From positions 15,896,698 through 15,960,697 of the forward strand of contig NC_023749.2 in the NCBI RefSeq assembly GCF_000499845.2: a stretch of DNA of 64,000 nt. Direction: 5' to 3'. Under the pieces are notes generated by a model. That model made no database searches. It was not told where the DNA came from and was given only the letters and a program-made list of their open reading frames with translations. The position numbers were made by a program, and so were the translations under genes. This DNA comes from Phaseolus vulgaris (taxonomy: Eukaryota; Streptophyta; Magnoliopsida; Fabales; Fabaceae). Below are positions 9,883 to 62,225 of the stretch, piece by piece. Each line of letters starts with the position of its first letter. Positions within the stretch are counted from its first letter, which is position 1.

Positions 9883-10476
9883 CAAGCCCCCCAGTCTTAA
9901 GCGAAGACTTGTCCAGCGAAAAGACTGAAGGAGTCACGTCACTACCGATCTACGTGGCGCTGGCGCAGAATTCCAAACGTTTGTACTTTCTGCTTTCCTG
10001 ACGCTCCACCAAACACTCTTCTAATCGCTCGACACGTGGCTTCATCAACGGTTGCCTTTAGTTGTCGTTTGCGCTTCCAAAAACCATTTGAAAAACCTTT
10101 AAACCCATTTCACTTCTACTGTTCCATCACCTCTTTGCTTTCTCAAGCGCTCTGAGTTTCTTCTGCGAAAACCCACGACGCTCTTCAACCTTCTGGATTC
10201 TCAACTTCCTTCATCGTTCTTCTGATCATAGAAAGGTACTCCCTTTACTTCTTCTGCTGAGTTTTCCTCCATTTTAACCGATTCGCATCATCCATTAACT
10301 GTCTGGTGCATACGCTGTGGGCTGTTTCTTCTGTTTCTCCCTTCTCGTAACTTAGGGCTTCGTCTCCATTACAACGAACCTTCGTTCGTTCGTTTTTTCA
10401 TCCTTCTTTCACGATCGAGTCAGCCTCTGCGAACGCTGCTCACCTTTCCCTTTCTTTTTCCTTTGCAGTTTCCGCG
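9883..10476 (+). promoter_or_regulatory. Upstream region and 5'UTR of the Tat-B antisense gene, with predicted 5'UTR intron
   Basis: No ORF here. It starts with the element's polypurine tract and leads to the ATG at 10477. A donor (GAAAG|GTACTCC at 10236) and an acceptor (TTTTCCTTTGCAG, ending 10468) predict a 233-bp intron in the 5'UTR. Equivalent donor and acceptor positions exist in Tat-A (40766 to 40528, minus) and Tat-C (49480-49707), which supports the prediction. An AT-rich cctttaaaccc near 10097-10107 is the only TATA-like candidate and is weak. Confidence 0.6.
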
Positions 10477-13091
10477 ATGGCTCGCTCAAAGATCACCCCA
10501 AATCCTCCTCCCTCGTCACGAAACCCTCCGTCTCAAGCTCATAACCCCCCACGAGCACCTGGTGCTTCTTCTTCCCAGGCTGAGAGGCCTGCAACCTCTC
10601 GCCCTGACTTGGCTCAGGCTACTCCACCGGTCGCCGGAGGAGCCTCCGTCCCCACTCCAGACTATAAAAAACTTTACCCTTGGGCCAGCTCGGCACTGCT
10701 GAAAGAAACTTCTTCGATAAACTCTGCAATGGCGGTACTCCGACTAAGGAAAGGGGACCAGTCGGATCTTTCTTTTCACAAGGAGCATGATAGCAAGATG
10801 GCCGTGCTGCCTTGCCACCCTGAGGAACCGATCTGCGCTGATGACAAAGCGAGCGAGGGCGAGTCGTTCTGCTTTCTCTATACGACGTTCTTCAAGAAGG
10901 TGAAGCTCCGACTTCCCTTCACTCATTTCGAGCGAGAGCTGCTGACCGAGCTCGACATCGCCCCCGCCCAGCTTCACCCCAACAGCTGGGCGTTCGTAAG
11001 GGCGTTCCAGATCATGTGTGCACATCTGGGACTGCTAGCGTCAGTGGACGTTTTCCTCTTCCTTTTTGAAGCTAAGCATCCAGGAGATCGCCTTTGGGTG
11101 AGTCTGAACGGGATTGCTGGGAGGTCGATCCTTTCTATCTTCCAGCAATCTTATAAGGATTGGAAGGGGAAATTCATTCAAATACGCCAAAACGACCAGG
11201 ATGCTTCGCTGCTCGACGGGTTTCCCTTGTACTGGGTAAACAAGGGAAACAAAGACTCCAAGGGAAGCTTTAGGAGGCCAAGAAGCCCTGACAACATGGG
11301 AGCCTTGGACAAAGATCTGTGCCTCTTCTGGAAGAGCGTGGCAGACGCCAACATCACTTTCCTCACCACTGTGCTCATTTCCTTCGAGTTCTTCGAAGAC
11401 CAACTCGAGGCTCGAATAGGTTAGAGCTCACCTCAATATCTAAGTTATTGCTCTTGGCGATACCTCTGTTAACTGTTTTTGGGCGTCTTGTCTGTTGTGC
11501 ACAAGACTTGGGTTTATTTTCTGCACAACTTATCTGCTTTACTTGCATACTGACTCATGTGTTTATCTTTCTCTCTGAGCTGACCCATGTACCTTTGTAT
11601 TATATAGATCTCATGTTGGGCAAGGGAAAACTGGCTGAATTGAGGGCGCTCGCCCGAGCCCATGGGTTGGCGTCGGGTTCCCAGACCGTGCCAAATTCAG
11701 TGGTAGAGATCGTCGCTGCCAAGGGCAGATCGCCCCCTAAAGGCCCAGCCCCTTCAGAGGCCCAGCCCGCCCCACAACCCAAAAAGCTCATCCTCAGGAA
11801 GTCAAAGAGGAAAACCCCTCAGGTGGTCCACGAGGATGAAGAAGAAGACGATGAGGCAACTGAAGATGGCCTCATCACCAAAAGAAAGAGGGTGGCGCCT
11901 TCTTCACCACCCGCCCCACCTCCTCTTCCAACATCAACACCACCTTCCACGCCAGCTCCACCTCCAACACTGCTTCCTCCCCCAGTTCCCACATCGCCAG
12001 TCCAAGCAATTCCCTTGGCGGCTGCATTTCCCGCCGTTGAGGCTGCTGGGCCCGACTTCCTGGAGAACCCCCCGAGCGCCTCCACGTCATATGTATCTGC
12101 TGGAGGGGGTCCTCCTTCAACTGCCTCAACGGCGGAAGCTGCACCAGGCGGGGATGAAGGTGCTCACAACTCGCCTATCATCATCACCGAGTCCCCCTCG
12201 TCACCACCACGCCAAGAAGCTCCAACCCTACAACCAACTCAAGAAGGTGGTGGCGAGAACCAGCAACAGGCTCCCCCAGCGCTTCCACGAGCAAACCTCT
12301 CTCTTGAGGTCAAAAGGGTGTGGGAACCCTTCTCAGCAAAACTCAAGATGATGGCAGAGGATTTTCCCTCCATCATATCAAAAGCTGTGGAGACTTCCAG
12401 CAAAAAACTCCAGGATGACATCTTCGTGCTCCAAGAGGAGAATCGCACAATAAGGATCGAGGCGGAGAAGTTATCCTGCAATCTCATGCTCGCGGAGATC
12501 GATCACTCCCGAGTGGAGGATGCTATGAGCACCGAGCTTCGGGTGGCACGCAAGGAGGCCACCGATCTACGCCATAAGGTGCAGCTCTTAGCTCAAGAGA
12601 AGATCGAGCTGGAGAGCAAGCTGGTCCCTTATCGCGTCAAAGTGGCTGACCTGGAGGCGTCGATCAAAGCAGATGTCGCCAAGGTAAAAAACCTTGAGAA
12701 GAGGTCAGCAGATCGGGAGGTCTTCTTGGGGAAGGTTGAAAAGGAGAGAGACGACACCATGGCCAAACTCGCCGAGGCCAAAGAGGAAAATGGGAAGATC
12801 GCCACAAAGCTGGCTCAGGCGCAGGCGGAAACCAAGAAGGTTGCTGAGGACCTCCTTCAAGCTCAGAAAACAAATGAAGAACTCAAGAAACAAGCTGAAG
12901 AGCTAAAACAGCAGAACGAGGGGCTCAAGAAGCAGATTGAAGAACTCGGGCTGAGCTCTGCCCAGATCCTCGCTGCTGGGTTCGATCCTGCCTTGGAACA
13001 ATTCGCCTGCCAGTACCCTGACTTGGATCTCTCCATGGTGTCGCTGAACAACGAGGTGGTGGACGGGAAGATTGTTCCTTCTGAAGATTAG
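10477..13091 (+). CDS. Intact antisense extra gene of Tat-B (PF04195-like N-terminus, coiled-coil C-terminus)
   Basis: Two exons, 10477-11419 and 11608-13091. The 188-bp intron starts GTTAGAG and ends TATATAG; it has phase 1 and gives IDLMLGKG at the junction, ~808 aa in all. Residues about 60-310 form a globular domain with KLYPWASSALLKE, LPFTHFERELLTEL, QLHPNSWAFVRAF, FEAKHPGDRLWVSL and LDGFPLYW, resembling Pfam PF04195 ('putative gypsy type transposon'). A Pro/Ser-rich acidic linker (about 330-500) and a long Glu/Lys coiled coil (about 510-770) follow, ending VVDGKIVP. No nuclease or polymerase motif is seen and its function is unknown. It lies opposite gag-pol, as extra ORFs of some Tat elements do. 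It is the only intact gene in Tat-B. Confidence 0.8.
11420..11607 (+). other. Coding intron of the Tat-B antisense gene
   Basis: Predicted from a canonical donor (ATAG|GTTAGA) and acceptor (TTATATAG|AT) that join two open frames, and from the matching position and phase in Tat-A (39540 to 39379, minus) and in both Tat-C genes. The lengths differ (188, 162, 211 and 99 bp) while the flanking protein is conserved. Confidence 0.75.
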
Positions 13092-14479
13092 TTGCTTCCC
13101 TCCATCCATTATTCCTATGCTTTCTCCTTTACACATACTCGCTTGTAATAAGTTTTTCCCTTTTTCTGTACATGTATTTTGAACTGATCATACTTTATTA
13201 TAAAGTCTTTGTGCTTTTTCTTACAACTTCTCTGTTTGCCTTATCTCTCCTTGTACAATTCACTTCAACGAAATTAACTTGGCAATTCTGCGAGCGCAAT
13301 TGTATACCAACTGCTTCAAACCATTAACTTTCGAACGATAACATTCTAACAACTCGTAAACTTTTAAAAGCAGCGAACTTCATCGTAAAACTACTCACTA
13401 AACAGCAAGTTTCACTTCAACTGACAGCTTAAGGCACAGCTTACCTGATCTGCTCCATTAAACGGGCCTTTGCTCGTGCCACCGCCCGAATCTGATCGCC
13501 AGAGGGTCTTGGCGATGTAGGCTTTCTCTTGCCCTCACGACTTGGCCATTGTTCCCTCATCTGGGGGGTAAAGGCGCCTTTCGGATCCTTCTCTACCTCC
13601 CTGAGCTTCAGAACAAAGAACCGGGTGGCTGGGCGTTCTCTTCGAACCTACCTTAGCCACCCTCTGAACTTCTCCCACCCTTTACACCATACCTAAACTC
13701 GTTCGAGACGAGAAGGATTTTATCTTGCCTGAACTCACTCAACAGTGAGAAGGTCTCTAACTCGCGTGAACTGGCTCATCGGCGAGAAGGTATTTTAACT
13801 CGCCTGAACTCGCTCATCGGCGAGAAGGTCTTTTAACTCGCCTGAACTCGCTCATCGGCGAGAAGGTCTTTTAACTCGTGCTTCTACATTGCCCCGGGGG
13901 CTACATCTTCTCTCCCCCAGAAACACTGAGGACTTTTTGCTGGTGCCTCTACATTGCCCCAGAGGCTACATCCCCTCTCCCCTGGAAGCACTGAGGACTT
14001 TTTACCGGTGCCTCTACATTGCCCCAGAGGCAACATCTTCTCTCCTCTGGAAGCACTGAGGACTTTTTACTCTTTCTAGCCTGCACTCGCTCGACGGCGA
14101 GGAGGTCTTTATCTCGCCTCAGGACGCGCGAGGGCGTTGAGGTCTTTTAACTGGTGCCTCCGATCGCCGAAAGACGATGAGGACTTTAAACTTTAACTGA
14201 TGCCACCAATCACCGAAAGACGATGGGGACTTAGAAACTTTTTAGAAAGCATGCAACATAACTCCAACTTGCCTTAAATCACATATAAGTGACAAGGTCT
14301 TTCTTCAAAACTTTCGGAAATCAACAAGCATGCAATCTAAAACACTTTAAACTTTAAAACTCTTCTTTATTGGGCGGCCTCATTAAAAACCCTCCTTAGG
14401 GAAAAAAGAGTGCCCCCTCCAAACTGTTTTAACAGAAACATTGTCAAGCTTTTCGTGTTTGTTCTTACTTACAAAGTTC
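13092..14479 (-). repeat. Tat-B 3' spacer with tandem repeats
   Basis: Non-coding gap between the end of pol and the end of the antisense gene. It holds about four copies of a 38-bp unit (phase marks gagaagg at 13747, 13784, 13822 and 13860), each with an internal ctcgcc/ggcgag inverted repeat. It also holds about three copies of a 65-bp unit (ctacattgcccc at 13884, 13949 and 14014). Diverged motifs with the same ctcgcc theme continue to about 14220. Tat-A has a different repeat, 98 bp, at the equivalent place. Confidence 0.8.
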
Positions 14480-28903: not shown

Positions 28904-30183
28904 CTTGTTGTTTCGAAAGTTGTAGTAAAAAGACCTTATCACTCGTACGTGATTCAAGGCAAGTTTAAAGTTATGCTGCATGCTTTCTAAGTAAAAGTTT
29001 TGAAGTCTCCATCGCCTTTCGGCGATTGGCGGCATCAGTTAAAGTTTTAAAGTCCTCATCTTCTTTCGGCGATCGGAGGCACCAGCGATAGAAAAAGACC
29101 TCCTCGCCCTCGAGCGAGTGCAGGCGAGAAAGAGTAAAAGACCTCCTCGCCGTCGAGCGAGTTCAGGCGAGAAAAAGTCCTCAGTGCATCCAGGGGGAGG
29201 AGATGTACACCCTGGGCAGGTTGAGGCACTAGATAAAGTCCTTCTCGCCGTCGAACGAGTTCAGGCGAGAAAAAGTCCTCAGTGCATCCAGGGGGAGGAG
29301 ATGTACACCCTGGGCAAGTTGAGGCACCAGATAAAGTCGTTCTCGCCGTCGAGCGAGTTCAGGCGAGAAAAAGTCCTCAGTGCATCCAGGGGGGAGGAGA
29401 TGTACACCCTGGGCAAGTTGAGGCACCAGATAAAGTCCTTCTCGCCGTCGAGCGAGTTCAGGCCGGATAAAGTCCTTCTCACCTCAGAGTGAGTTCAAGC
29501 AAGATAAAATCCTTCTCGTCTTGAACGAGTTCAGGTATGGCGTGAAGGGTGGGAAAAGTTTAAAAGGATGGCTAAGGTAGGTTCAAAGAGAACGCCTCGC
29601 TGTTCGGCTTATTGTTCTGAAACTCAGGGAGGTAGAGAAGGATCCGAAAGGCGCCTCTACCCCCAGATGAGGGAACAATAGCCAAGTTATGAAGGCAAAG
29701 AAAGCTTACATCGCCAGAACCCTATGGCGATCAGAGGAATTCCAGGCGATGACAGGAGTAAAGGCTAACCTTGCCAGGCAGATCAGGTAAACTGTATTGT
29801 AATACCAGTTTAAGTTAAAACCTGCTGCCTAGTAAGTAGCTAATTGCCTTAAGTTTGCAAGTTACGTTAAATGTCATCATTTGAAGGTTAATAAGTTGCT
29901 CAAGTTTTACTTTGAGTTAACAGTTGATGAATTGTTATAAGATTGATAGTTTGCTCAAGTTCAAAGCAGTGAGTAAACGGTTAAGCCCGAGGAATCGATG
30001 GGTTGATTTGTTTAAGCAAGTTTCACCAGATGAGTTGATCAACCATACAGCAAGGTACAAAAGCAGAAGAAGTCATATGAAAGCAGTGTCAGTTCAAATA
30101 CATAAGAAGAAGAGTTGCAAGTAAAGTTCGTTCAAACAGAAATAAGCGCTAAGTCTCAAAAAACAAGCGATGGAGGGAAGTGA
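28904..30183 (+). repeat. Tat-A 3' spacer with 98-bp tandem repeats
   Basis: Non-coding region between integrase and the antisense gene. Three copies of a 98-bp unit begin at 29182, 29280 and 29378 (start cagtgcatccaggggg), each ending in the gagcgagttcaggcgagaaa theme. Simpler ctcgcc...gagcgag motifs lie on both sides (29090-29180, 29460-29530). From 29540 to 30183 I see no repeat or gene; the piece near 29600-29660 matches Tat-B around 13560-13640 in reverse. Confidence 0.85.
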
Positions 30184-47773: not shown

Positions 47774-48979
47774 TGTTCCGTCCGGTTGACCGGGACGTCT
47801 TCGTGCACGACCTCAACCGTCAGCTGGGGTTGGTTGCCCGCGGATTCCTGCAAAAAAAGGGGACAAAGAGGCGCCCTAGCGGCCGTGTGCACTCCGACGC
47901 TCAAGTCAGCCAGCAAGAAACACCAAAAAACTGTCCACCCACGTATCTGAGCACCGCGTGTGGCACTCTGAAGGTGGCAAAAGAACTGTGTATATGTGTG
48001 TGTGTTGTCTCCTTCAGGAAAAAATATTCTCCAGTCACTTGTACGTAATCTCACGGGCAAGCAACCAGAGAGTTTCTCGTAAATTTGCCAAAGGTTCCCA
48101 CCCTTTTTCCGACATTCCCAGCGCTATTTAAACTGCCCCAGCATTTAAAGCGCCTTAAAGCGCTTTTAATCTCAAACGTAACGCACTCATTAAAGCGCTT
48201 AATTACGAAACGTAGCGCATTTAAGACGTTGAAACGCTCGGGAGCCATAATAGTACCTGAATGCTCGAAAGGGAAACTGTATTGAATATCTTTAATTACC
48301 TGGCACCTGACTAGAGGGTGTTTCTATTCTGGCATGGCTGTCGTACACGTGGAGGGCCTCACGACGCCATGAACCCATCTGGGGGCGTTTCTGTCCACCT
48401 GGGGACGTCTCTACGTGTGAGCCCTCCTGCTTGGGAGTGCTACTGCGCTAGGGGTGACTTTTTGGGTGCGAACTCATGCCCCCAAGTATCTAGCCACTTA
48501 CTTTGAGAGCGTATCTGCCTTCCTCTCGTACCCTGCACCCGCTTACCCTGGGCGTGACCTTCCTCTTGGGTCGTATCTGTCCCGAAAGCGTCTCTGGGGT
48601 GGCAGGGGTACTTCACGAGTCAGGTTGCCCTACCCTGATGTCATCACTATGGCCTTGAAGCCACCTTTTTTTCTCTTCATCACTTTCCCGAGATATCGGG
48701 TCCTGAGGCTTTCCCACGGCGTCGCTCCCTCCATGGTCTTTCCTACCCATGGGTATCGGGGAACCATACCGTGATTGCCTTACTTTTACACTGTTTGATC
48801 TGGCTACCCCCTGGTTGGGCGACGCCTCCACCCAGGCGACGCCTTGCCTTGGCGACGCCTTGTCCTATCTTGGCGACGCTTCCTCTTGGCGTCTCTACAC
48901 CTGGGCGACACCTTGAGTTGACTTTGACTTTCCAGTCGTTGACTTTGACTTAGTCAACGCCCTGATACGGGACGGTACA
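47774..48979 (-). repeat. Tat-C 3' LTR
   Basis: TGTTCCGTCC to GGACGGTACA on the plus strand. It contains the conserved R/U5 block (47871-47910, minus), an AAAGCGC/GCTTTAA array (48135-48235), and a ggcgacgcc-rich stretch at 48815-48910. It is followed by the polypurine tract (minus strand GACTGGGGGGCTTG, about 48980-48994). Confidence 0.93.
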
Positions 48980-49718
48980 CAAGCCCCCCAGTCTTAAGCC
49001 GAAGACTTGTCTTCAGCGCAAAGACTAAAGCCTTGCCCCCACCATCCGCGTGCTTTCCTGATGACGTGTCATTCTCTGCTGACTCAGCAATTTTTCGAAT
49101 TACTGACGCGACACTTTCTGAACCACAGGGTATTCTTAATGACCGATTGGACATTCCCTGAAATGGGGATGATAACGCCTTTTGGGCTACCCTTGATCGC
49201 GCGCCACGTGGCCCATCGCGTGGTCCTCCTTTAGGGACCTTTGCGTTTCCCCTGGGCAATCGACCCTCTGACGCGTGGCCCGATCCTGCGGTCCTTAGTT
49301 AGCGCCTCTTGAGTTGCGAAATGTAACGTTTAAGTTATTCCAAACCCCGCGCTCACCCTACTGTTACATTCATTCACTCTGCTACTTCGCACTGTTCATC
49401 GCCTCCAAAACCTTTTTTCTCTACAATTGCGATTCTCCCCTTCCTGCGCTCTCCTACCGCCTCCATTTCAACAGCAAAGGTATGGTTTCGAGCACTCTCA
49501 ACTCTTCACTTTCGTCGCATTATCGGAAACTGCCTGGGACTGTTGTTATTCTCGTATTTCTCTGGATATTGTTTGTATGCTTCGTTGTTCCTCTCGCTTC
49601 CCTTCGTTCTATTGTGGGTAGGGCGCTCCTAGGGTTCTTCCATTTTCCCCTTTTCTTCTCCCCAAACCCCTTTTCTCTGAACCCTTTCTTTCTCTTTTGA
49701 TCTTCAGCATTGGCGTTG
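48980..49718 (+). promoter_or_regulatory. Upstream region and 5'UTR of Tat-C antisense gene 1
   Basis: No ORF of note. A predicted 5'UTR intron at 49480-49707 (donor CAAAG|GTATGG, acceptor TTGATCTTCAG) sits at the same place as in Tat-A and Tat-B although the sequence around it is diverged. The CDS start is the ATG at 49719. Confidence 0.55.
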
Positions 49719-52700
49719 ATGGCGAAAACCAAGACCACCGCGCCTCCCCCGCTCCCCAAGTCTCATTATAAGGGCGAATATGACTGGGCCCCCGATGAAC
49801 TTCTGGACGAATGTTCCCTCCTGAACTCTGTTGAGGACGTGGAGGCTCATAGGGGGGACCCTGCCCTCTATAACTTCAATGCGTTCCACAAAAATCACGA
49901 ATCCCAAGTCCTGGTAAGCCGGGTGCGACCTGGGATGCCCGTTCGTGCGGACTCACGGGATACTGGGGGATGCCCTTTCTTCTTCCTCTATCAGATGGTG
50001 CTCAAGAGGGTGGGCCTGCATCTACCCCTCACTCCCTTCGAAAAAGAGCTACTGACAGAGATAAACACTGCTGCCGCCCAACTCCATCCCAACAGTTGGG
50101 CTTTCGTGAGGGGGTTGCAAATTCTCTGCGGCTGTCTAGGCGTTCCTTCCTCCATGGACGTTTTTCTTCACTTCTTCGAGGTAAAGAAGCAAGGGAAGAG
50201 TCTCTGGATGAGCTTTTCTGGCATCGCCGGGCGCATCATCCTTACGCTCTTCCAGAATTCGTTCAAAGGATGGAAGGGGAAATTCTTCAAGGTACGCGCG
50301 ACCAAGTGCGATCCTTCCATCCTAGAGGGCTTTCCCCTGTACTGGACAGACAAACCCATAACCATGAAGCCCTTGCTCTGGACGAGCTCGCCCCGCCTGA
50401 CCGGGATGTATGCAAAGCCTTGGCGGGACTGGGAATAGTCTTCGATACCGCCAAACTCATCGCGAACGAATTCAATGCCCATGGGCTTTCTACCTACTTC
50501 GGTATCTGCTTTTGGTGATTTATGATGCATTAGTTGTTGTGGTTATCTGCATGTTTTGGCCATAGAATCTTCCTTCTGATTCATCTGAATTAAACTTATG
50601 CTACCATTTTTCGCTGTACAATGTTACTTGCATTTTCGCGCCTCTTCATGTATTGTGAATTCGCATAACTGTTCTAGTGCTAATCCTTGTTATTTGGCCT
50701 GTCTTGATATAGGATCAGTGATGGGCGTTTCCAAAAGAATAATGTTGGCGAAAGCACTGAAGGAGGCTCGTGCCGCCAAGGCAGGTGTCTCCTCCAGCCC
50801 TGTTGCCAATCCGGTTCTCCCACCGGCTCCGTCACCGACGCCTCCAGTCATTGCTGAAGCTGCTTCTAGCCCATCTCCGACGTCTCCACCTGGCTCCAAA
50901 GTGCTTCCAACTCCCAATTCTCCTCCGCCTATCGCCGTCGTTCCCCTAGCTGCAGCCTCGTCACCGGCTCCAACCCCTCTTGACAAAGGGAAAAGGGTTT
51001 TGGAGGTTCTGTCAGATGATGAGGAATCAGAGGGCGTGGCACCCTTCAGAAGGAGAAAATCCGCGCGGGTTCCTCTTCTGGTAGAGACGTCGCCACAGGG
51101 AGGGAACCCCTTTATGGACAACCCTCCAAGCGCAACCTCACTCCCTCCTATGATTCTCCAAGAGGAAAGGGGCGAAGGTGCTGAATCTGCGCCGCCTCCG
51201 CCGTCGCCAGAAACCACTGCTTCCCCGGCTCCCGACGTTGCTGCCCCCGACTTCATCGCCATCCCTCCTCCAATCATGCACCTGATGAGGGGTTTCAGTG
51301 GCGGGACTATGCCAGAAGGTACCGACAGGAGGGAAGGCATGCCTTTCTACTTGGGGGCCTTCTTGGCGGTGGCCCTTGAATGGCGCTCCCAGGCCAGAAA
51401 CGCGATCCTGCAAGCTCATACCCTCCAAGCCTTGGAAACAAAAGCATCTACTCTGGAAGAGGAAATGAGGACCCTGGGACGCCAGAACGAAGCCTATCAA
51501 ACTTCTCTGAGACAAATACAAGAGTCCAAAGCGGAAACAGAGAGGCAACTGACGGAGGCATTGGAGCTCCAGGCAGGCTTCTACACTCGGGAGGTTGCTC
51601 TCCAAGTACAGGTGGCGGGTCTTCAGGAATTGGTCAAAGCGGATGCAGAAACTCACAAGGACCTGAAGGACCGTTGCTGTGAACAGGCTGCCAAGGTGGA
51701 GCGGATGGAGGAGGAAATGGCCACCCAGGCCAAAGCTATGGACCTTCTCCGAGTTGACTACGACAAACTGCGGGTCGAGGTTAGCCGGCTTCGCGTCACC
51801 AAGAACAATTTAAAATATAAAAACAGCAAGACAAGTAAGGAATTGAAATGACAAAGATGAAATAAAGAAGAACTGAAATTAAAAGACCAAGCTACTCATC
51901 TTGAAGAACCAAAAGCTCATGATACCAAATGATGGCATTTCATGTGTTCTTCTTGAATCAAAGTAGTGAAAGTGATGCGGAAGCAATGGGTGAGTGAAAC
52001 AAAGCCCTCCTAGGAGTTGTGTTGGCTTTGAAGGTGCATGATGAGTATGGGTTCGAGAGGTTCGGCCAGCTCAAGGGAGAAAGGTGAAAGGATTGAAGTT
52101 TATAGCCTAGATTTCTAGGAGAAGTAAAGCTAGTGCACAAAATGGGCAGCATAACAATACTCAATTAAACTTGTCAAATACAATGAGATAGCCTTCCTAT
52201 TTATAGGCCATCTTGGACGTAAAAGGTAAGCTACTTTCTAATGAAAAGAAAACAAAAATTAAATGTAAAACCTAAGCCATGTGCCATGTGCAATGACCGG
52301 CCACACTAACCTAGTTTCTAGAATGTTTCCTTCACAAAGTGCTTTCTACACTATCCTATCTACTAAGTACCCCTAATGGGCCTTTATGCAACAAAGCCTT
52401 CTTGTCCCAAACCGTAGCTTGGCTCATGTGTGTGTGAAGCTAGACGGTCTAGGACTCTTCATAGATGCTCCTTATGTAGCCATGGCTAGACGCTCCCTTG
52501 TGAAGCTAGACGCTCCATTTGGAAGACTAGACGCTCCTTTGAGAGGCTAGACGCTCATTTGTGAAGCTAGTCTTAGTCTTTTGGCTTTCATAGTGTGGTG
52601 AGCTTGGGCCCTCTTCCATCAAAGAGGCTCTGGAGAAACAGGTGGCCTCTGGAGACGCCGCCATTGAGGAACTAGAGAAGGAGAAAAAGTCCCTTATCCA

Positions 52701-52845
52701 GGAGATGGCGGGTACCTTCGAGGAGGGGTTCCAAGAGGCCCTGACCCAGGCGTCCTGCGAGAATCCTGGCGTCAACCTTTCAAACTGCGACTCCACACAC
52801 CACGTCGTCGACGGGAAGGTCGTGCCCATGGACTTGAACGACTGA
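49719..52845 (+). pseudogene. Tat-C antisense gene 1 (PF04195-like, coiled coil), interrupted
   Basis: Exon 1 is 49719-50501. It begins MAKTKTTAPPPLPK, with EYDWAPDELLDECS, LPLTPFEKELLTEI, QLHPNSWAFVRGL, FEVKKQGKSLWMSF and LEGFPLYWTD, then shifts frame once near 50355 before ANEFNAHGLSTYFG. The intron is 50502-50712 (211 bp). Exon 2 (from 50713) gives a Pro/Ser-rich linker and a coiled coil to about 51806. The Crm-5 fragment (to 52621) interrupts it, and the end 52622-52845 finishes HHVVDGKVVPMDLND. It is homologous along its length to the Tat-B gene. The function of this family is unknown. Confidence 0.82.
51806..52621 (-). mobile_element. Crm-5: truncated chromovirus-like element (5' LTR plus leader start)
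   Basis: LTR at 51930-52621 (692 bp, minus; starts TGATGGAAGAGGG on that strand, ends ATGCCATCA) preceded by the primer site (minus strand TTTGGTATCATGAGC, 51915-51929) and ~110 bp of leader. The leader breaks into the gene around 51806 through an aagaaca stretch shared by both sides. No second LTR and no clear TSD, so most of the element has been deleted. LTR units carry GAGCGTCTAG variants (52455-52570). Confidence 0.82.
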
Positions 52846-54141
52846 ACCGCTGCCCCTCATCCGCCACCTTCCTCTTCAAGCTTAACTCTTCATTCTTTAC
52901 CTTCGTTTTTTTTATTTTATCTGTCAAAACTTGTAATTCTTTGAACTATCCGCACTCTTGTTACTGATTTGGGACGTTCGTATGGTTGCCTTTATTTCTT
53001 TGTCACATACGATTCTGCCTATGCGATCTCATTCTCATCTTTTCCCTTCACGCGCTTCACTTACTTTATCTGGGTTCTGCCCATTTCTTTCACTTCGTTG
53101 GGCGGTTTGGTATGATTGGGTAAGGTCGCCCGCCAACCCTCACGCCCATGGAGAGGCTCACTAAGTGGCGCCGTATCGTCCACGAGACGTCTCTGATACC
53201 GAAAGGTCCTTTATTTGATCTTTTAACGGTCGACGCCCACGCCTAAGGAGAGGCTTGCTAAAGCAGCACCGTATCGTCCCCGGGTGTCTAAAACGCTGAG
53301 TGCTGTGGGGGTCTGTTCCCTCCATGGTCTTTCCTGCCCATAGGTATCGGGGAACACCCTGCCAGTGACTCGCTGGCGTTTGACGGTCTCGTCTCCCTCC
53401 ACAGTCTTCCCTACCTGTGGGTATCGGGGAGGCGACGCCTATGACTAACTTTGCTTTTCTTTGCTTTCGTCTCCCCCCACAGTCTTTCCTACCTGTGGGT
53501 ATCGGGGAGGTGAAGCCAGTCGGTATTTGGGTTGGCGACGCCCGCGACATCTCGCACTGTCGTCGCCCTTTACGTCCTTCCTGGCAACGCCTCGGGCGTT
53601 ACCTTTACTTCGACATTGACCTTAATTCTTGCCTTGGTCAACGCCTGATAACAGCGAAGAGCCCAAGGCTTTGCCTGTGCCATCCACATGGCGCTCCTTG
53701 TGTAGCTGATGGGACCTTCTGTCATTCGACTTGATCCACGTGGCGCTGCTTGCATGGTTGATGGGGTATCTAGTCATTCCATTTTCTGACTCCTGCTGTA
53801 CCCCTGGCTCACTTTCGACGGTGCATCGTACCACTGGATATTCTGCTGATACGACGTTTTCTGATTTAAACCAGTGGTGCCAGCGTCATCCTTTCATCTT
53901 CTGCCACGTGTATCAATCGCGCGGTGCATCCGTTCGCGTCGTTTGGCGCTCTAACCGCTTTATTTAACTCTTCAAACTCTGGAACTATCTTCATCATTTT
54001 CTCACTCTTCATAACCTACTTGCGTTCTTTCTCCTTGCACCCTTCCTTCTTGCACCCTTTCTTCTCTGTCGAAGGGTTGTTCTAACCTTCGCTCCCCTCG
54101 CTCAACTCTTGCATTTCTGGCCATCCCGATCTTGTTAAAGA
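52846..54141 (+). other. Spacer between the two Tat-C antisense genes, with a repeated tatcgggga motif
   Basis: No ORF I can support. It holds at least three copies of a 35-40 bp motif (about 53318-53355, 53392-53432 and 53469-53510; core cctacctgtgggtatcgggg), which also occurs in the Tat-C LTRs at 48727-48762 and 61973-62008. The right end should hold the promoter and 5'UTR of gene 2; ctttatttaa near 53957 is the best TATA-like candidate. Confidence 0.6.
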
Positions 54142-55107
54142 ATGTCTTCTCACGATGCTTCCTCCAGGGTCCGTCCCAAAGACTTGTACCCTTGGGCCTC
54201 GAGTGAACTTCTTGATGAGTGTTCATGCTTGCTCTCCACCAGGGCCGTACGGGAACACAAAGGGGAGTTGTGTTCTTATGACCACCGGGCCTTCGCAAGG
54301 AGGCACGATGACGACATCGCTGTGCTCCCTTGCACTCTGGGGGAGCCAGTGTGTGGAGACGAACGAGCCAACGACAGGGTCCCTTTCTTTTACTTTTACC
54401 AGGTGGCGTTCAAGACCATCGGGGTGCGCTTACCCATCTCCTGGTTCGAGAAGGAACTGCTGACGGAGATCAACGTTGCTCCGGCCCAGTTATACCCCAA
54501 CAGCTGGGCCTTTGTCAAAGCCTTCGACGTTCTCTTCGGGTTTCTGGGTTGTGCACCCTCGGTTTACCTCTTTCTTCACTTCTTTGAGGTGAAGAGACAG
54601 AGACACAACCTCTGGGTAACTCTCAGTAACGTGCCCGGGAGGGTTCTCTTCACACCCTTCCAGAGCTCGTTCACCGGGTGGAAAGGCCGGTTCTTCAAGA
54701 TCTGTCGTACTGACCTTGTTCCCGACGCTCTGGATGGGTTTCCGCTGTACTGGGTGAGAGAGGAAAAGGCCCTCAAAGCCAAACCCCTCAAGAATCTGGC
54801 TCCAAGTGATCAAATAGCTTGCCGGATTCTTGCTGAGGCGGGAGGCTTTGACTCTGCTACGGTGATCAGCTTGGAGTTCAACGCTAGGACTCTTGAGAAG
54901 TACATATGTGAGAACCACTGCCTTAGGCAACTTCGGCCTTCGTTACTTTCTAACTGTGTCTGTCTTTCTTCACGGTGTCTCTAATACATCTGTTCCCTTT
55001 GTGCAGGTTCGAAAATAAGCCAAGAAAAGAGGACACGACTTACTCGAGCGCTGCGGGCTGGGAAAGGGGCTTCGCCTTCCTCCAGTGATGACTCTGATGA
55101 GCGCTGA
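54142..55107 (+). CDS. Tat-C antisense gene 2, intact (short PF04195-like protein)
   Basis: Two exons, 54142-54907 and 55007-55107; the 99-bp intron has donor AT|GTGAGA and acceptor CTTTGTGCAG, phase 1, giving 288 residues. Start MSSHDASSRVRPKDLYPWASSELLDE. The domain shows LPISWFEKELLTEI, QLYPNSWAFVKAF, LHFFEVKRQRHNLWVTL and LDGFPLYWVRE. The short basic and acidic tail ends SSSDDSDER, without the Pro-rich linker and coiled coil of gene 1. It is thus a shorter paralogue. No stop or frameshift. It lies between gene 1 and the 3' end of pol, reading toward pol. Function unknown. Confidence 0.78.
54908..55006 (+). other. Intron of Tat-C antisense gene 2
   Basis: Canonical GT...AG with good flanking consensus. 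Splicing restores an open frame to 55107 and adds 32 residues. Without splicing the frame ends at 54984. Confidence 0.7.
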
Positions 55108-55506
55108 GAAGTGGCTTGTTTGTGTTTTTGCATTTTGTACTGGACATTGCTTGTAACAACAACTTTTCAATATCATAATTCTTTACAACGCCACTTTACT
55201 TTGCGTATGCTTCATATACCGCGCGACTTCCTTTCGTCTCGTTCTGCCAACGATGCATGCTTTTACTTGGGCGACGCCTTCTTTCTGGGCGACGCCAAGA
55301 CCTAGGCGACGCCTTCTTCCTTGGCGACACCATGGCCTAGGCGGCGCATCACATTACTTCTAACAAGGAAAGATAAAGGCTGAAAACCAAGGCACTTCTT
55401 TTTCTCAACTGGTTTTTCCATTTATTAGGGTGACCTCATTAAAAAACCCCCGAAAGGGAAAAAGAGCGTCCCCTTCAACTAAATTGTTACATGCTGCTTA
55501 CATAAG
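55108..55506. other. Convergent 3' region between gene 2 and pol of Tat-C
   Basis: Both the plus-strand gene 2 and the minus-strand pol end here, so transcripts probably overlap tail to tail. It contains ggcgacgcc units (55271-55350), as in the LTR. No gene. Confidence 0.6.
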
Positions 55507-58500
55507 TCAACTGAAATAAAATTTTAAGTTGGCTGCATTCCAACTGCGCGGGATAGGGCCTCCATCTAAAGTCTCCAGGTTGTACGAACCGTTGCCCTTA
55601 GCCTCAGTAACTCTAAAGGGCCCGGTCCACTTGGGAGACAGCTTATTCTCCAACTCGTATGGGTGAGCTTTCCTCATCACTAGGTCGCCCACCTGAAACT
55701 GTCGCGGCTTTACTTTAGAGCTATATTGCCGCTCCACTCTTCTCTTCATCGCTTCAGCTTTTATTCTAGCTTCTTCCCTGGCCTCTTCTAGCAGATCCAG
55801 GTTTACCCGTCTCTCCTCATTAGATTCCTCCACCACAAAGTTTTGAAAACGCGGTGAGCTTTCGTGTATTTCTACTGGAATCATCGCGTCCGACCCGTAC
55901 ACCAAACTGAAAGGCGTCTCCATAGTAGAGGATTGGGGCGTGGTGTGGTATGCCCATACAATCCTTGGCACCTCTTCCGCCCACGCCCCTTTGGCCTTCT
56001 CTAACCTTCTTTTTAACCCCCTCAACAGAACTCTGTTTGCTGACTCTACTTGTCCATTGGTCTGGGGGTGTTCGACCGACGCGAACACTTGCTTGATTCC
56101 CACTTCAGCGCACAGATTTCTCAACTGCTGATTGGCGAACTGGGTCCCGTTGTCAGATATCAGGCGCCTGGGTACGCCAAAGCGACACACGATGTTTCTC
56201 CACACAAAATGCTGTACCTTATACGCAGTGATTTGTGCCACGGGCTCTGCCTCTATCCACTTAGTGAAGTATTCTATGGCGACGATCAGATACTTCATCT
56301 GCCTGATTGCCAGTGGGAAAGGGCCCAGGATGTCAATTCCCCATGTGTGGAAAGGCCACGGGCTGTATATGGACCGCAACTCTTCTGGCGGCGCCTTGTG
56401 CCAGTCGGCGTGCTTTTGGCATTGCTTACACCGCTGGGCGTGCCGTGCGCAATCCTCTTTCACTGTTGGCCAGAAGAAACCTGCGCGTATTACCTTGGAG
56501 GCTAAGGACCTTCCTCCTACATGGCTTCCGCAGATGCCTTCGTGTAGCTCCGCCATTATCCTGGTGCACTCATCGCCACTGACGCATGTTAGGATAGGGT
56601 GAGTGAAACCGTGCCTGAACAGCACCCCATCCACCAAAGTATATCTTGCGGCATTTCTTTTGATTTTCTTACCCTCTTCAGGGTCCACTGGAAGGGCCCC
56701 ATCCGCCAGGTATCGTTTATAGGGCGTCATCCAGGTGTCTCCCTTGGACAGGACACAGACCTGCATCTGCTCTTCCTCAGACACACCCGCGTATATACTA
56801 ATGCGGGGCGCCCTCTGCGTATCTTGGGTCAATGAGGAATGACTCCTCGGCCTTCCCCTTGATGCATAAATCTGGAGGACATCCACCCTGTTGTCTTCCA
56901 CGAATCGACGCGGAGCTTTGAGAGTCTCCTGGATCACTGTCCTCTGTCTACCCCCCTTGCCTGAGCTGGCCAGCTTTGCGAGCAGGTCAGCTCTGGCATT
57001 CTGCTCCCTCGGGACGTGTATTAACTCAAGAGCGTTGAACGCCCCTCTCAACAACTGGACGTATTTTAGATACGCCGCCATCTGTGGGTCCTTCGCCTGG
57101 AACTCACCCGACACCTGCCCCGTAATCAACTGGGAGTCGCTCTTCACTAGGAGGTTCTGTGCGCCCATCTCCTTGGCCAAGAGCATTCCTGCAATCAGGG
57201 CTTCATATTCTGCTTGATTGTTACTTGCCTTGAAGGCAAAACGCAAGGCCTGCTCGATCAGTATGCCGTCGGGTCCTTCCAGCACTATTCCCGCACCACT
57301 CCCTTGTTGGTTTGAGGAGCCATCAACCGAGAGCAGCCACTGTGAACTCGCTTCCACCTCTTGCTCACCTCCGGGCGAAAGTTCCGCTACAAAATCCGCG
57401 TACACCTGCCCTTTGATGGGTCCTCTAGGCTCGTACTGTATGTCGAATTCTGACAGCTCCACTGCCCAGCGTACCATCCTTCCTGCCACATCGGGTTTCT
57501 GCAGCACTTTCTGTATGGGGAGATTGGTCATCACTACCACCGTAAAACTGTGGAAGTAATGACGGAGCCTCCTAGCAGAAAACACTACCGCCAGCGCCAC
57601 CTTCTCCAGTGCTTGGTACCTTGTCTTAGCCCCCTGTAAGGCCTTGCTTACAAAGTAGATGGGCTTCTGACTCTGGTCCTGCTCTTGGACCAACACAGAA
57701 CTGATGGCCCGCTCCGTTACAGTAAAATACAACCGGAGGGGCACGCCTGTTACCGGCTTGCAGAGAACCGGTGGCGTCGCCAGGTACTCCTTCAGCTTAA
57801 TGAAAGCCGCTTCGCACTCATCAGTCCAGGCAAAGCGACTGTTTCTCTTGAGGCACTGGAAGTACGGGTGCCTCTTTTCTCCTCCGGCGGAAACAAACCT
57901 CGAGAGCGCCGCCATCCGCCCTGTCAACTGTTGCACCTCCTTTACCGATGTCGGACTCCGCATGGCGATAATAGCCGCACATTTGTCGGGGTTCGCCTCT
58001 ATTCCCCTCTCGGTGAGCAAAAAACCCAAGAACTTACCAGCCTCTACCCCGAAAACACACTTTTCGGGGTTCAACTTGAGGCGGTATTTGGATATTGTGT
58101 TGAACAACTCCTCGAGGTCTGTCATGTGCTGCACCCTACTCTGCGACGCCACCACCATGTCGTCGACATAAGCGTACACATTCCTCCCAAGCATTGGCGC
58201 CAGGACCTTATCCATTAGCCTCTGGTACGTGGCGCCCGCATTTTTCAGCCCGAAGGGCATCACCTTATAACAGTAACTGCATGTCTCCGTCATGAATGCA
58301 GTTTTGCTCTCGTCTCTTGGGTGCATCTTGATTTGGTTGTACCCTGAGAAGGCGTCCAGGAAACTCAACACCTTGCTGCCGGACGCGCTGTCTACCAAGG
58401 CGTCGATGCTGGGCAGCGGATAGGAATCCTTTGGGCATGCCTTGTTCAGGTCCGTGAAGTCAACGCACATTCTCCACTTTCCGTTCGCCTTTTTCACCAA

Positions 58501-59793
58501 GACGACATTGGCGAGCCACTCAGGGTACTGAATCTCCCTAATGTAGCCAGCACTCAGCAGCTTCTGCGTTTCGTCTCTCACCACCTGTTGTCCTTCCTCA
58601 TTGAACTTCCTCCTTCTCTGACGCACGAGGCGGACCGTGGCGTCCATGCTGAGGTGGTGACACAGGAAATCAGGGTCGATACCTGGCATATCCGAGGCGG
58701 ACCATGCGAAGGCATCCAGGTGGCGCGAAATCACTTCTACCACCCCTTCCTGTTCTTCTAGGCTTAACGAGCTTCCTAACCTGAAAGCTTTGCCGCCAAT
58801 CTCCCTTTCTATGGCGTTAGCTGCAGGCTGCTCCCTGCTATCATCTTCGACGGACGCCGCCTCTTCGACAGGCGCCGCCTCTTCTACGAGCGCCGCGTCG
58901 TCAGGGCCTTCCTCCATTGGCACATCTGCTTCGGGCCTCGCCCTCTCTGCTATGGCCGCTTCAGGCGTCAGCCCAACGGGCGTCGCCTCAACCATCGTCG
59001 TGTCCGCTCTTGGCGGACGTTCATACACCATAAATACGCCTCTCTTCGTCTTCAGGCTGTTTTCATAGCATTTCCTCGCCTCCTCCTGGTCTGACCTGAT
59101 GACTATCACCCGGCCACTGAGGTCCGGTAGCTTCATCTTCATGTGACGGGTGGAGGACACTGCACTCAGACGGTTTAACGCCGGTCTGCCCAGCAAAATA
59201 TTGTAGGCAGAATTGGCGTTCACGACGAGGTACCGAATGCTCTCTGTACGGGAGGCCTCTCCGTCTGTGAACGTAGTCCTCAACTCCAGGTACCCCCGGA
59301 CCTCTACCTGGTTATCCCCAAACCCATACAAACATCCCGTATAGGGACTCAGCAGATCGGGGGACAACCGTAACTTATTAAAGGTCGACAGAAACATGAC
59401 GTCTGCCGAGCTTCCTTGATCAACAAGCACTCTGTGGACCTTCCTTCCAGCTGTGACGACTGAGATGACAACGGGATCGTTGTCGTGGGGCACCACATCT
59501 CGGAGGTCTCTTCTTGTGAACACAATATCTGACTCCCAGGGCTCCCCCGAGAGCCTCTCTTCGATTGAATTCACCCCCCTCGCGTATTTCTTCCGCTGGG
59601 AGGCGGTGGGTCCTCCGCTGGAAAAACCTCCAGCAATGGTGTGGACCTCGCCAAGCACAGGCATCTCGTGTGCTGGCTCATCTGCCGGCGGCGGCAAGGT
59701 GGCGGTCGTGGTGGAATCTGCGACATAATCTTTCAAAAACCCAGTCCTCACCAGCTCATCTAGCTGGTAGCCCAACGACAGGCAATTATGAAT
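55507..59793 (-). CDS. Tat-C pol polyprotein (protease, RT, RNase H, second RNase H, integrase)
   Basis: 1,422 codons open from 59775. Protease: VLVDQGSSADVM (Asp ~119). RT: VDFTDLNKACPKD, LDAFSGYNQIKM, YVDDM (~536-540). The RT-linked RNase H (~640-780) lacks its first Asp (LYFTVTERAISSVL), while the second, archaeal-type RNase H (~800-930) keeps SVDGSS, NQAEYEAL, KSDSQL and ARADLLAKL. Integrase: HHCC finger (LHEGICGSHVGGR ... RCKQCQKH), WGIDILGPF, SDNGTQFAN, NGQVESANR and a KWTGPFRV tail. All key residues for RT and integrase are present. Translation normally continues from gag, but a TAA at 59794 separates them. Confidence 0.9.
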   Translation of the reverse strand: MHNCLSLGYQLDELVRTGFLKDYVADSTTTATLPPPADEPAHEMPVLGEVHTIAGGFSSGGPTASQRKKYARGVNSIEERLSGEPWESDIVFTRRDLRDVVPHDNDPVVISVVTAGRKVHRVLVDQGSSADVMFLSTFNKLRLSPDLLSPYTGCLYGFGDNQVEVRGYLELRTTFTDGEASRTESIRYLVVNANSAYNILLGRPALNRLSAVSSTRHMKMKLPDLSGRVIVIRSDQEEARKCYENSLKTKRGVFMVYERPPRADTTMVEATPVGLTPEAAIAERARPEADVPMEEGPDDAALVEEAAPVEEAASVEDDSREQPAANAIEREIGGKAFRLGSSLSLEEQEGVVEVISRHLDAFAWSASDMPGIDPDFLCHHLSMDATVRLVRQRRRKFNEEGQQVVRDETQKLLSAGYIREIQYPEWLANVVLVKKANGKWRMCVDFTDLNKACPKDSYPLPSIDALVDSASGSKVLSFLDAFSGYNQIKMHPRDESKTAFMTETCSYCYKVMPFGLKNAGATYQRLMDKVLAPMLGRNVYAYVDDMVVASQSRVQHMTDLEELFNTISKYRLKLNPEKCVFGVEAGKFLGFLLTERGIEANPDKCAAIIAMRSPTSVKEVQQLTGRMAALSRFVSAGGEKRHPYFQCLKRNSRFAWTDECEAAFIKLKEYLATPPVLCKPVTGVPLRLYFTVTERAISSVLVQEQDQSQKPIYFVSKALQGAKTRYQALEKVALAVVFSARRLRHYFHSFTVVVMTNLPIQKVLQKPDVAGRMVRWAVELSEFDIQYEPRGPIKGQVYADFVAELSPGGEQEVEASSQWLLSVDGSSNQQGSGAGIVLEGPDGILIEQALRFAFKASNNQAEYEALIAGMLLAKEMGAQNLLVKSDSQLITGQVSGEFQAKDPQMAAYLKYVQLLRGAFNALELIHVPREQNARADLLAKLASSGKGGRQRTVIQETLKAPRRFVEDNRVDVLQIYASRGRPRSHSSLTQDTQRAPRISIYAGVSEEEQMQVCVLSKGDTWMTPYKRYLADGALPVDPEEGKKIKRNAARYTLVDGVLFRHGFTHPILTCVSGDECTRIMAELHEGICGSHVGGRSLASKVIRAGFFWPTVKEDCARHAQRCKQCQKHADWHKAPPEELRSIYSPWPFHTWGIDILGPFPLAIRQMKYLIVAIEYFTKWIEAEPVAQITAYKVQHFVWRNIVCRFGVPRRLISDNGTQFANQQLRNLCAEVGIKQVFASVEHPQTNGQVESANRVLLRGLKRRLEKAKGAWAEEVPRIVWAYHTTPQSSTMETPFSLVYGSDAMIPVEIHESSPRFQNFVVEESNEERRVNLDLLEEAREEARIKAEAMKRRVERQYSSKVKPRQFQVGDLVMRKAHPYELENKLSPKWTGPFRVTEAKGNGSYNLETLDGGPIPRSWNAANLKFYFS

Positions 59794-60941
59794 TTAGTGC
59801 CCGAAAGCCTCGTGAAATTCGCACCAAGAGTCTTTGCGGGGCCCTAACACCTTGTCGGTCTTCGCCGGTCGCCTCAGCCTCTCGGCTATGTTGGGTACGA
59901 CGATCAAATCCTTCAACTCAACTACGAAGTTGTACCTCGCCAGTCTTGCTCTTTCTCTGGCGGGGCGTTCGCCTCCTGCTGGGCCCCGGGGCTGGGGCTT
60001 TCTGGCTTCGTAGGGGCGTCTCGCCTCTGGCTTCTTTCTCCCCGTCGTGGTCTCATTGACTCTGATGGGTTGAACTCGCGCCGGTCCCCTCGGGCGTGAG
60101 GGCACGGCGCTGGTGCGCTTCACACATACCTCCCCTTCCGAAGCAATATGCTCTACTGCCCTGCGCCTAATTCAGCGAAAGTCCTAGGGCGATTACGTAT
60201 AATGGATTCTCCGAAGGGGCCGGGGCATACGCCTTTCACAAACGCGTACACGATCATAGGCTCTTCTGTTGTGCCAACCTTCACGACCTGGGCCCCGAAG
60301 CGATTGATATACTCCTTCAGGGTCTCCCCCTGATATTGCTTCACGTCGAACAGGTCGTAGGAGACCGGCGGCGGGGCCTTGTTGGCTAAGTACTGTTCTC
60401 GGAATAACCGCGACAATTGGCGGAAGGATGTGATATGACCTTCTGGGAGGCTAATGAACCAGTCCATAGCCATCCCGGTCAGGGTGCTCATGAAGAGCTT
60501 GCACTTGGCAGCATCAGAACCACCTATCAGGACCATCTGCGTGTGAAATGCAGCCAGGTGCGTCTCTGGGTCCTCCATCTCGGTGAAGATCACCTTGGGT
60601 CCCGCGAACGTGTTCGGGATCGCTGCGTCTAGGATCTCCTGTGAGAAAGGAGTGGAAAACTCCCTTGGTGGGGAATGGTTCTCCGTCTCGTCATGCCCAG
60701 GCCGCCTCCTATCGTTTCTCAGGCCCTGGCGCAACTCCTCATTCACACGGTGGAGCTCTTCGTTCCGCTCATGCGAGGCGTCAAGGTCTGCCTGCATGCG
60801 CTCCTGCTCCATTTTGGAATCCGCCATGTCCTGCTGCAGCCCCCTCATTATTTCCAGGACCTGCTGCATGGATAGGTCTACTGGGGCTGCGCGCGCTGCT
60901 CTTCGTCTGGTGGGGGCCATTGTCACTCCAAACTCCTTCAA
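59794..60941 (-). pseudogene. Tat-C gag
   Basis: Starts at the ATG at 60941 (or the internal ATG at 60920, MAPTRRRAARAAP), only about 60 bp after the primer site. Capsid region: SPPREFSTPFSQEIL, TEMEDPETHLAAFHTQM, DWFISLPEGHITSF, YDLFDVKQYQGETL. One base is missing near 60170, after RTFAEL; the frame resumes with RGPARVQPIRV and ends at TAA 59794 (AFGH*). As in Tat-A there is no CCHC knuckle. It needs two changes to join pol, so the copy is almost intact but not autonomous as read. Confidence 0.88.
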
Positions 60942-60998
60942 CGTTACTGTAACTTGATAAACCTTCTCGAACTTGTGATGGGACTGATGTTTTATATC

Positions 60999-61017
60999 GG
61001 CCCCACGGTGGGCGCCA
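60999..61017 (-). other. Tat-C primer binding site
   Basis: TGGCGCCCACCGTGGGGCC on the minus strand, two bases after the 5' LTR end. It starts with TGG as expected for pairing with a tRNA CCA end. Same core as Tat-A and Tat-B; tRNA species not assigned. Confidence 0.8.
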
Positions 61018-61019
61018 AA

Positions 61020-62225
61020 TGTTCCGTCCGGTTGACCAGGACGTCTTCGTGCACGACCTCAACCGTCAGCTGGGGTTGGTTGCCCGCGGATTCCTGCAAA
61101 AAAAGGGGACAAAGAGGCGCCCTAGCGGCCGTGTGCACTCCGACGCTCAAGTCAGCCAGCAAGAAACACCAAAAAACTGTCCACCCACGTATCTGAGCAC
61201 CGCGTGTGGCACTCTGAAGGTGGCAAAAGAACTGTGTATATGTGTGTGTGTTGTCTCCTTCAGGCAAAAATATTCTCCAGTCACTTGTACGTAATCTCAC
61301 GGGCAAGCAACCAGAGAGTTTCTCGTAAATTTGCCAAAGGTTCCCACCCTTTTTCCGACATTCCCAGCGCTATTTAAACTGCCCCAGCATTTAAAGCGCC
61401 TTAAAGCGCTTTTAATCTCAAACGTAACGCACTCATTAAAGCGCTTAATTACGAAACGTAGCGCATTTAAGACGTTGAAACGCTCGGGAGCCATAATAGT
61501 ACCTGAATGCTCGAAACGGAAACTGTATTGAATATCTTTAATTACCTGGCACCTGACTAGAGGGTGTTTCTATTCTGGCATGGCTGTCATACACGTGGAG
61601 GGCCTCACGACGCCATGACCCCATCTGGGGGCGTTTCTGCCCACCTGGGGACGTCTCTACGTGTGAGCCCTCCGGCTTGGGAGTGCTACTGCGCTAGGGG
61701 TGACTTTTTGGGTGCGAACTCATGCCCCCAAGTATCTAGCCACTTACTTTGAGAGCGTATTTGCCTTCCTCTCGTACCCTGCACCCGCTTACCCTGGGCG
61801 TGACCTTCCTCTTGGGTCGTATCTGTCCCGAAAGCGTCTCTGGGGTGGCAGGGGTACTTCACGAGTCAGGTTGCCCTACCCTGATGTCATCACTATGGCC
61901 TTGAAGCCACCTTTTTTTCTCTTCATCACTTTCCCGAGATATCGGGTCCTGAGGCTTTCCCACGGCGTCGCTCCCTCCATGGTCTTTCCTACCCATGGGT
62001 ATCGGGGAACCATACCGTGATTGCCTTACTTTTACACTGTTTGATCTGGCTACCCCCTGGTTGGGCGACGCCTCCACCCAGGCGACGCCTTGCCTTGGCG
62101 ACGCCTTGTCCTATCTTGGTGACGCTTCCTCTTGGCGTCTCTACACCTGGGCGACACCTTGAGTTGACTTTGACTTTCCAGTCGTTGACTTTGACTTAGT
62201 CAACGCCCTGATACGGGACGGTACA
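61020..62225 (-). repeat. Tat-C 5' LTR
   Basis: 1,206 bp. A TATA-like TTTAAATAG lies on the minus strand at about 61370-61378, next to the GCTTTAA array (61380-61480). Edge confirmed by the TSD GGAAC at 62226-62230. Confidence 0.93.

Follow-up and report, generated by a model that had tools for sequence, protein, structure and literature searches.

In a 64-kb stretch of genomic DNA (the window, i.e., the whole stretch analysed), located on contig 11 of a genome of 537.7 Mb, we found Tat-C, a complete long terminal repeat (LTR) retrotransposon of the Retand/Tat type. Within its single LTR pair lie two genes of the TRP28 family, here designated gene 1 and gene 2, both on the forward strand, with gag-pol on the reverse strand (Table 1). 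An initial annotation, made from the letters alone, had proposed that Tat-C carries two genes of one family opposite to gag-pol, and indeed both match the Pfam family PF04195. Judging from its sequence, gene 2 is a TRP28 gene with a spliced frame and no tail, and an integral part of a large Retand family of this genome. Located in front of pol, it forms a second antisense unit and is preceded by a block of its own that carries LTR-motif repeats.

The second antisense gene proved to be real, with the exons, the phase-1 GT-AG intron of 99 nt and the 54907|55007 junction exactly where they had been placed. The spliced frame of 867 nt codes for 288 amino acids plus the stop, and PF04195 (Transposase_28, TRP28) is matched in exon 1 with an E-value of 4e-9 and 37 bits, against a curated cut-off of 26.2. 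The same model matched 75 of 75 aligned relatives (E up to 1), as well as exon 1 of gene 1 (E 7.5e-9). The description of gene 2 as short and tail-less also held, its frame ending 33 codons past the splice site, where gene 1 continues into a proline-rich and then coiled-coil-like region (the "coiled coil" of gene 1 being judged by eye from the sequence). The claim that gene 2 is undamaged stood for its frame alone, which is open; the protein of the window copy deviates at four sites where 65-72 of 73-74 other rows agree.

Table 1. Position in the window of gene 2, its upstream sequences, gene 1 and the other parts of Tat-C.
Feature	Position	Strand	Remarks
Gene 2, exon 1	54142..54907	+	TRP28 domain at residues 88-151
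Gene 2, intron	54908..55006	+	phase-1, GT-AG, 99 nt
Gene 2, exon 2	55007..55107	+	short basic stretch, then serine/acidic end, stop
Three LTR-motif copies	53328..53508	+	77-78 nt apart; 0.63-0.81 kb upstream of gene 2
3' flank of gene 1	53118..53310	+	block like sequence 2.5-3.6 kb downstream of the antisense-gene ATG in 7/16 loci without a pair
Gene 1, exon 1	49719..50500	+	TRP28 domain; exon end approximate
Gene 1, exon 2	50713..52845	+	proline-rich, then coiled-coil-like tail; interrupted; start approximate
LTR-like insertion within exon 2 of gene 1	51797..52622		~0.8 kb; limits approximate
Tat-C, complete Retand/Tat-type LTR retrotransposon	47774..62225	gag-pol on -	LTR pair, target-site duplication, self-BLAST
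Tat-C 3' LTR	47774..48979	-	upstream of both antisense genes
Tat-C 5' LTR	61020..62225	-	
Tat-C pol open frame	55507..59793	-	full-length match in L069 (one piece) and in L070 (two abutting pieces)
Tat-C gag N-terminal frame	60153..60920	-	start codon assigned by reading

The search of the genome with gene 2 exon 1 gave 149 scored matches out of 12498 candidates, 94-100% identical, all full length or short by at most two residues, and 131 of them without an internal stop. A second gene 2 subfamily (P0003 type) accounted for 124 further scored matches, 86-99% identical, with no overlap between the two sets. Twenty gene 2 copies were fetched and read. Exon 1 measured 766 nt in all of them, and 18 retained both splice sites, an exon 2 of 101 nt and the short end, although one of these (L048) has a stop in exon 1; the two exceptions were L031, without its 3' end, and L042, with a deletion spanning the intron and the first part of exon 2. 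Among the gene 2 relatives, L013 (76% protein identity) retains the complete gene structure; L009, L014 and L028 are damaged or truncated. The intron of intact copies and relatives is 98, 99 or 101 nt long and, since introns of 98 or 101 nt put exon 2 in frame only after splicing, the gene 2 frame appears to be kept through splicing. Similar short ends, about 33 residues past the splice site, were found in the database proteins P0003, P0004 and P0019, which read through the intron. On these sequence grounds, the tail-less form is a trait of the family and not an accident of the window copy. As separate observations, three P0003-type copies form a tandem array on one strand, 4.19 kb apart (G000:C11:28176987-28186328), and several TRP28 genes of the genome (G000) have open frames of 775-791 codons, some families seeming intron-less or read-through.

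Ratios of nonsynonymous to synonymous substitution (dN/dS) were calculated by the Nei-Gojobori method (NG86), leaving L048 out of the gene 2 rows. L013 compared with 18 rows (the window and 17 copies) gave 0.162/1.79 = 0.091, bootstrapping of the comparison between L013 and the window gave a range of 0.055-0.164 (of 100 resamples, 96 could be used), and the ratio was 0.125 between subgroups A (5 rows) and B (13 rows), 0.18 within B and 0.13 within A. Because the copies were ranked by protein score, dN is lowered within the close groups; L013 was chosen otherwise. For gene 1, comparison with 11 rows gave 0.081 (L009) and 0.076 (L014), with 0.12 within the 11 rows and 0.20 between L009 and L014. 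The substitution pattern indicates that gene 2 is under strong purifying selection, the ratio that the initial annotation had proposed to compute being about 0.09 (range 0.09-0.18), far below 1. The same pattern bears on an explanation in which only the antisense RNA matters, by way of double-stranded RNA and small RNAs, and the protein is unused. Antisense transcription is discussed as a silencing route for such genes in the text of PMC7264820, but the concentration of differences at the third codon position (67/35/131 at positions 1/2/3 over 288 codons), the low dN/dS and the faster change of the intron than of the exons (0.153 vs 0.065 for coding sequence, subgroups A vs B) make this explanation very improbable.

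To what extent the two genes occur together was read from the 149 scored gene 2 matches and 150 scored gene 1 matches. They form 50 pairs, all on the same strand with gene 1 first and 3232-4420 nt apart (3450-3654 nt in 44 of the 50), against a mean of 0.145 and a maximum of 2 pairs in 200 shuffles of the positions; reversed or opposite-strand pairs within 8 kb were absent from these lists. Nine further pairs have a gene 1 of another type, which shares 69-73% identity with P0090 (its list of 141 rows was reduced to 140 by leaving out the second piece of a gene already listed), and 59 of the 149 gene 2 matches are paired with any listed gene 1; none of 80 P0090-type genes of at least 74% identity is paired with gene 2. 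The 1.25 kb upstream of 20 gene 2 copies contained exon 1 of a Tat-C-type gene 1 in 12 cases (two of them in two pieces), a 70%-type gene 1 in one and the intron and exon 2 of gene 1 in another (14/20 in total), with the 3' LTR in place of gene 1 in four and other elements in two, which count neither way. Four of 20 strong TRP28 loci chosen by the Pfam model are gene-1/gene-2 pairs, and loci with a single TRP28 gene of either kind exist as well (within the 9.9 kb read). The pair is thus not private to Tat-C, a point that the initial annotation had left to be decided on other copies. A private and recent duplication in one element, intact by chance, could be imagined from the fact that two of the three Tat elements of the window carry one TRP28 gene only; it is refuted, almost with certainty, by the 149 near-identical matches, the 50 pairs and a dN/dS far below 1. 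Apart from these pairs, P0024-type genes are preceded at two places (G000:C1:22438295-22442145 and C11:18961741-18964846) by a 73% relative on the same strand, at a distance of 2.3-3.0 kb, possibly a second kind of antisense pair, and L027 (4660-7039) carries on one strand two distant TRP28 stretches of P0153/P0143 type, about 1.7 kb apart.

Three elements (L033, L035 and L038) have an open gene 2 and no gene 1. Their deletions span from 49.44-49.54 kb to 52.97-53.04 kb in Tat-C coordinates, removing the whole of gene 1 and retaining 1.1-1.2 kb upstream of gene 2. Since the three differ in their breakpoints, each with a short shared sequence (~3-7 nt by eye), we read them as separate deletions. 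The gag-pol region is present in L033 and L035, the two gene-2-only elements checked for it, where the 7 kb beyond gene 2 match gag, pol and the 5' LTR of Tat-C; the match is 96.7% over 7.1 kb in L069 and 98.4% over 6.1 kb plus an LTR in L070, and the gag N-terminal query was matched over 273 of 277 residues beside gene-2-only copies. As the loci were sampled by their gene 2, the opposite loss may occur as well. The losses of gene 1 with an open gene 2 speak against an obligate partnership in cis, not against one in trans. They also weaken the proposal, which takes up the partner and regulator of the initial annotation, that the gene 2 protein naturally antagonizes or modulates the long one, competing for DNA or forming inactive mixed complexes. 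Such a role would agree with a TRP28 domain kept without the tail, with the similar selection on both genes and with the near-fixed spacing of the 50 pairs; on the other hand, gene 2 pairs with two gene-1 kinds in the genome lists, which argues against a tight one-to-one matching, and we regard an antagonist as rather unlikely.

Gene 1 and gene 2 are 49% identical. At E up to 0.001 the protein database contained 237 relatives for gene 2 and 333 for gene 1, and the best 120 of each were used; out of 176 sequences collected, 137 had at least 195 residues or came from the window, and 100 of these, which covered at least 80% of the core or belonged to the window, entered a tree built by quick search and supported by Shimodaira-Hasegawa-like approximate likelihood ratio test (SH-aLRT) values only. 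In this tree the clade that contains gene 2 has 30 rows and the separate one that contains gene 1 has 28 (SH-aLRT 100 for both), and the two genes are not sisters, each nesting among genes of other elements. The notion of a paralogous tandem pair is correct in that both genes belong to the TRP28 family, but the pair does not look like a simple tandem duplication, in which the two would be mutually closest; this relationship was not recovered among the 100 rows. The rows nearest outside the gene 2 clade are P0030 and a group of six, among which only P0036 is readable onward, and it is long-tailed. A gene-2-like gene at L018 (80% to P0024) is long-tailed as well, its tail being present with a broken frame. 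As the nearest readable relatives of gene 2 are long-tailed, it likely descends from a long-tailed gene and has since lost the tail.

A 26-nt motif with a palindromic core, TCTTTCCTRCCYRTRGGTATCGGGGA, occurs once in each Tat-C LTR (48737-48762 and 61983-62008) and again in the repeats upstream of gene 2, with five matches in the window and none in 100 shuffles. It is repeated also upstream of the gene 2 relatives L009 (3 copies), L013 (2), L014 (3) and L028 (7), and in 9 of 16 loci without the pair a single copy precedes the antisense gene by 0.5-1.3 kb, on the strand of that gene. Of 20 other TRP28 loci of the genome, many contain the motif, though not all. In an LTR alignment of 11 loci, the motif block is the best conserved part (0.97 vs a mean of 0.63), and the conservation extends about 10 nt past the search pattern.

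In Tat-C, a gene-1-type 3' flank is followed by the LTR-motif repeats and then by gene 2. From this shared layout, each antisense gene looks like a unit made of motif, gene and 3' flank, of which Tat-C would have two. In a comparison of pol among relatives from this genome, the pol of L018 groups with three of five P0090-type elements (support 96/92), and its antisense gene and pol thus differ in affinity, so that antisense genes seem to move between elements. We accordingly take the pair to be the likely product of a recombination that joined the antisense units of two Retand lineages. The competing account is an old tandem duplication in place, after which gene 2 lost its tail and other lineages lost one copy, with no need of exchange. 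It would explain why both units share the upstream motif and a gene with a phase-1 intron, and it could accommodate the P0024-type genes with their upstream relative, pairs being perhaps older and wider than Tat-C. Against it, gene 1 and gene 2 each group with the genes of other elements, the loci with a single TRP28 gene of either kind would require many separate losses, and the antisense gene and the pol of L018 differ in affinity; we give this account somewhat less than an even chance.

With regard to function, gene 2 would be expressed from its own antisense promoter, and its protein may be, with less certainty, a nuclear DNA-binding regulator. Through its TRP28 domain it would act on the palindromic motif of LTR type, lacking the assembly that the tail confers on the long protein, and would tune how strongly the element, or its antisense genes, are transcribed, independently of gene 1 in the same element. 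This less sure role is suggested by the motif, by the nuclear location of Grande gene23 and by the predicted DNA binding of TRP28, the last two as given in the texts of PMC7264820 and PMC11963269. The reading as a whole, i.e., a conserved gene 2, the loss of its tail, a recombined pair and a DNA-binding regulator, is in our estimate slightly favoured, with a probability of about 0.55.

Several points weigh against this reading. Ranking the genome copies by protein score gives preference to those that are intact and conserved, and L013 is a single sequence with a dS near saturation. The tail is unreadable in most of the nearest relatives, the database proteins stopping in the intron. Only 3 of the 124 P0003-type gene 2 copies pair within the lists used, which are without the gene-1 type that adjoins this second subfamily in L009 and L014. 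The argument for exchange comes from one element, L018, and 1 kb of its pol. The motif was not found, allowing up to 4 substitutions, upstream of the antisense gene in 7 of the 16 loci without the pair, and the 11 loci of the LTR alignment were selected because they contain it. Finally, the AlphaFold2 model of the gene 2 protein is weak (mean predicted local distance difference test, pLDDT, 65) and matched no solved fold, and DNA binding by TRP28 is, in the text of PMC11963269, a prediction only.

A more elaborate scheme would have the two TRP28 proteins as a two-component switch on one palindromic LTR motif, the tailed one assembling on it and the tail-less one competing or activating from its own motif-rich promoter, with gene-2-only elements using the long protein of paired elements in trans. 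We offer it as a speculation with little chance of being right in full.

Gene 1 of the window copy is broken twice, by a frame change near 50.35-50.38 kb and by the ~0.8-kb LTR-like insertion at ~51.80-52.62 kb, to which similar sequence occurs at more than six other sites of the window; the end of its frame (VVDGKVVP...) is common to other long forms. That gene 1 is broken, as had been stated, is true of this copy but not of the family, 137 of 150 scored exon-1 matches in the genome being without an internal stop (a ranking by score that favours intact copies). Likewise, the gag-pol of this copy is not continuous, a frame change and a stop lying between its gag and pol parts. The Tat-C LTRs, of 1206 nt each, have TG...CA ends, the 5-bp target-site duplication GGAAC stands on both sides of the element, and self-BLAST places the element inside another gypsy element, which it interrupts. 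The two LTRs differ at 9 positions, corresponding, at a substitution rate of 1.3e-8 per site and year, to an age of about 0.3 million years. Tat-C is one of three Tat elements of the window; tblastn with three TRP28 queries retrieved four TRP28 genes, one in Tat-A, one in Tat-B and two in Tat-C, and the long-form genes of Tat-A and Tat-B, compared with each other, show a dN/dS of 0.04-0.08 at a dS above 1. Tandem repeats adjoin pol in Tat-A and Tat-B (13709-14070 and 29137-29476), like those described for other Retand elements.

An antisense TRP28 open reading frame (ORF) between pol and the 3' LTR places Tat-C among the Retand elements. For these, the text of PMC11963269 (Vicient 2025) reports LTRs of 315-1194, internal regions of 7380-12869 and pol-3'LTR distances of 2.9-6.6 kb; in Tat-C the LTR exceeds the published maximum by 12 nt, the internal region is about 12.0 kb and the pol-3'LTR distance about 6.5 kb, of which 0.8 kb is the insertion. 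According to the same text, only two of the 63 Retand clusters of recent elements lack antisense TRP28 genes, and a broader survey gives their presence in 23% of Retand elements (text of PMC6317226). From Table 1 and the text of PMC11963269 we computed 57 TRP28 ORFs of at least 600 bp in 56 of the 63 clusters, which leaves at most about one cluster with two (shorter ORFs being uncounted there). A TRP28 pair in one element was not found described in the open-access text that our literature search covered. The role of the antisense TRP28 genes is presented as an open question in the text of PMC11963269. Long and tail-less forms under strong selection, natural losses of gene 1 and a shared LTR motif may be regarded as a natural experiment, bearing on what the TRP28 domain does alone, what the tail contributes and whether the LTR motif is a target; a short gene 2 kept working in many copies would make the purpose of extra retrotransposon genes easier to test.

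Among known systems, the nearest is the antisense ORF of Retand elements as given in the text of PMC11963269, which shares with that of Tat-C the TRP28 domain, the orientation antisense to gag-pol and the location between pol and the 3' LTR, whereas Tat-C has two TRP28 genes, the second being tail-less. In common bean, which is probably also the host of Tat-C, 15 Ty3-gypsy families have an ORF2 (Gao et al. 2014, PMC4093653); the table passage of that paper gives it one size per family, and neither a pair nor a spliced short form, both found in Tat-C, was met with in the passages covered. Grande gene23, as cited in the texts of PMC7264820 and PMC11963269, is an antisense accessory gene with its own promoter and a nuclear protein, and is described there as a single gene, in contrast to the pair of Tat-C. 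The deltaretrovirus antisense genes HBZ and APH-2, as cited in PMC11963269, code for antisense regulatory proteins of an LTR element, and the likeness is by analogy only. Antisense TRP28 genes were thus already known as a hallmark of Retand, and what we did not find described in the texts covered is their side-by-side pair with a tail-less second member.
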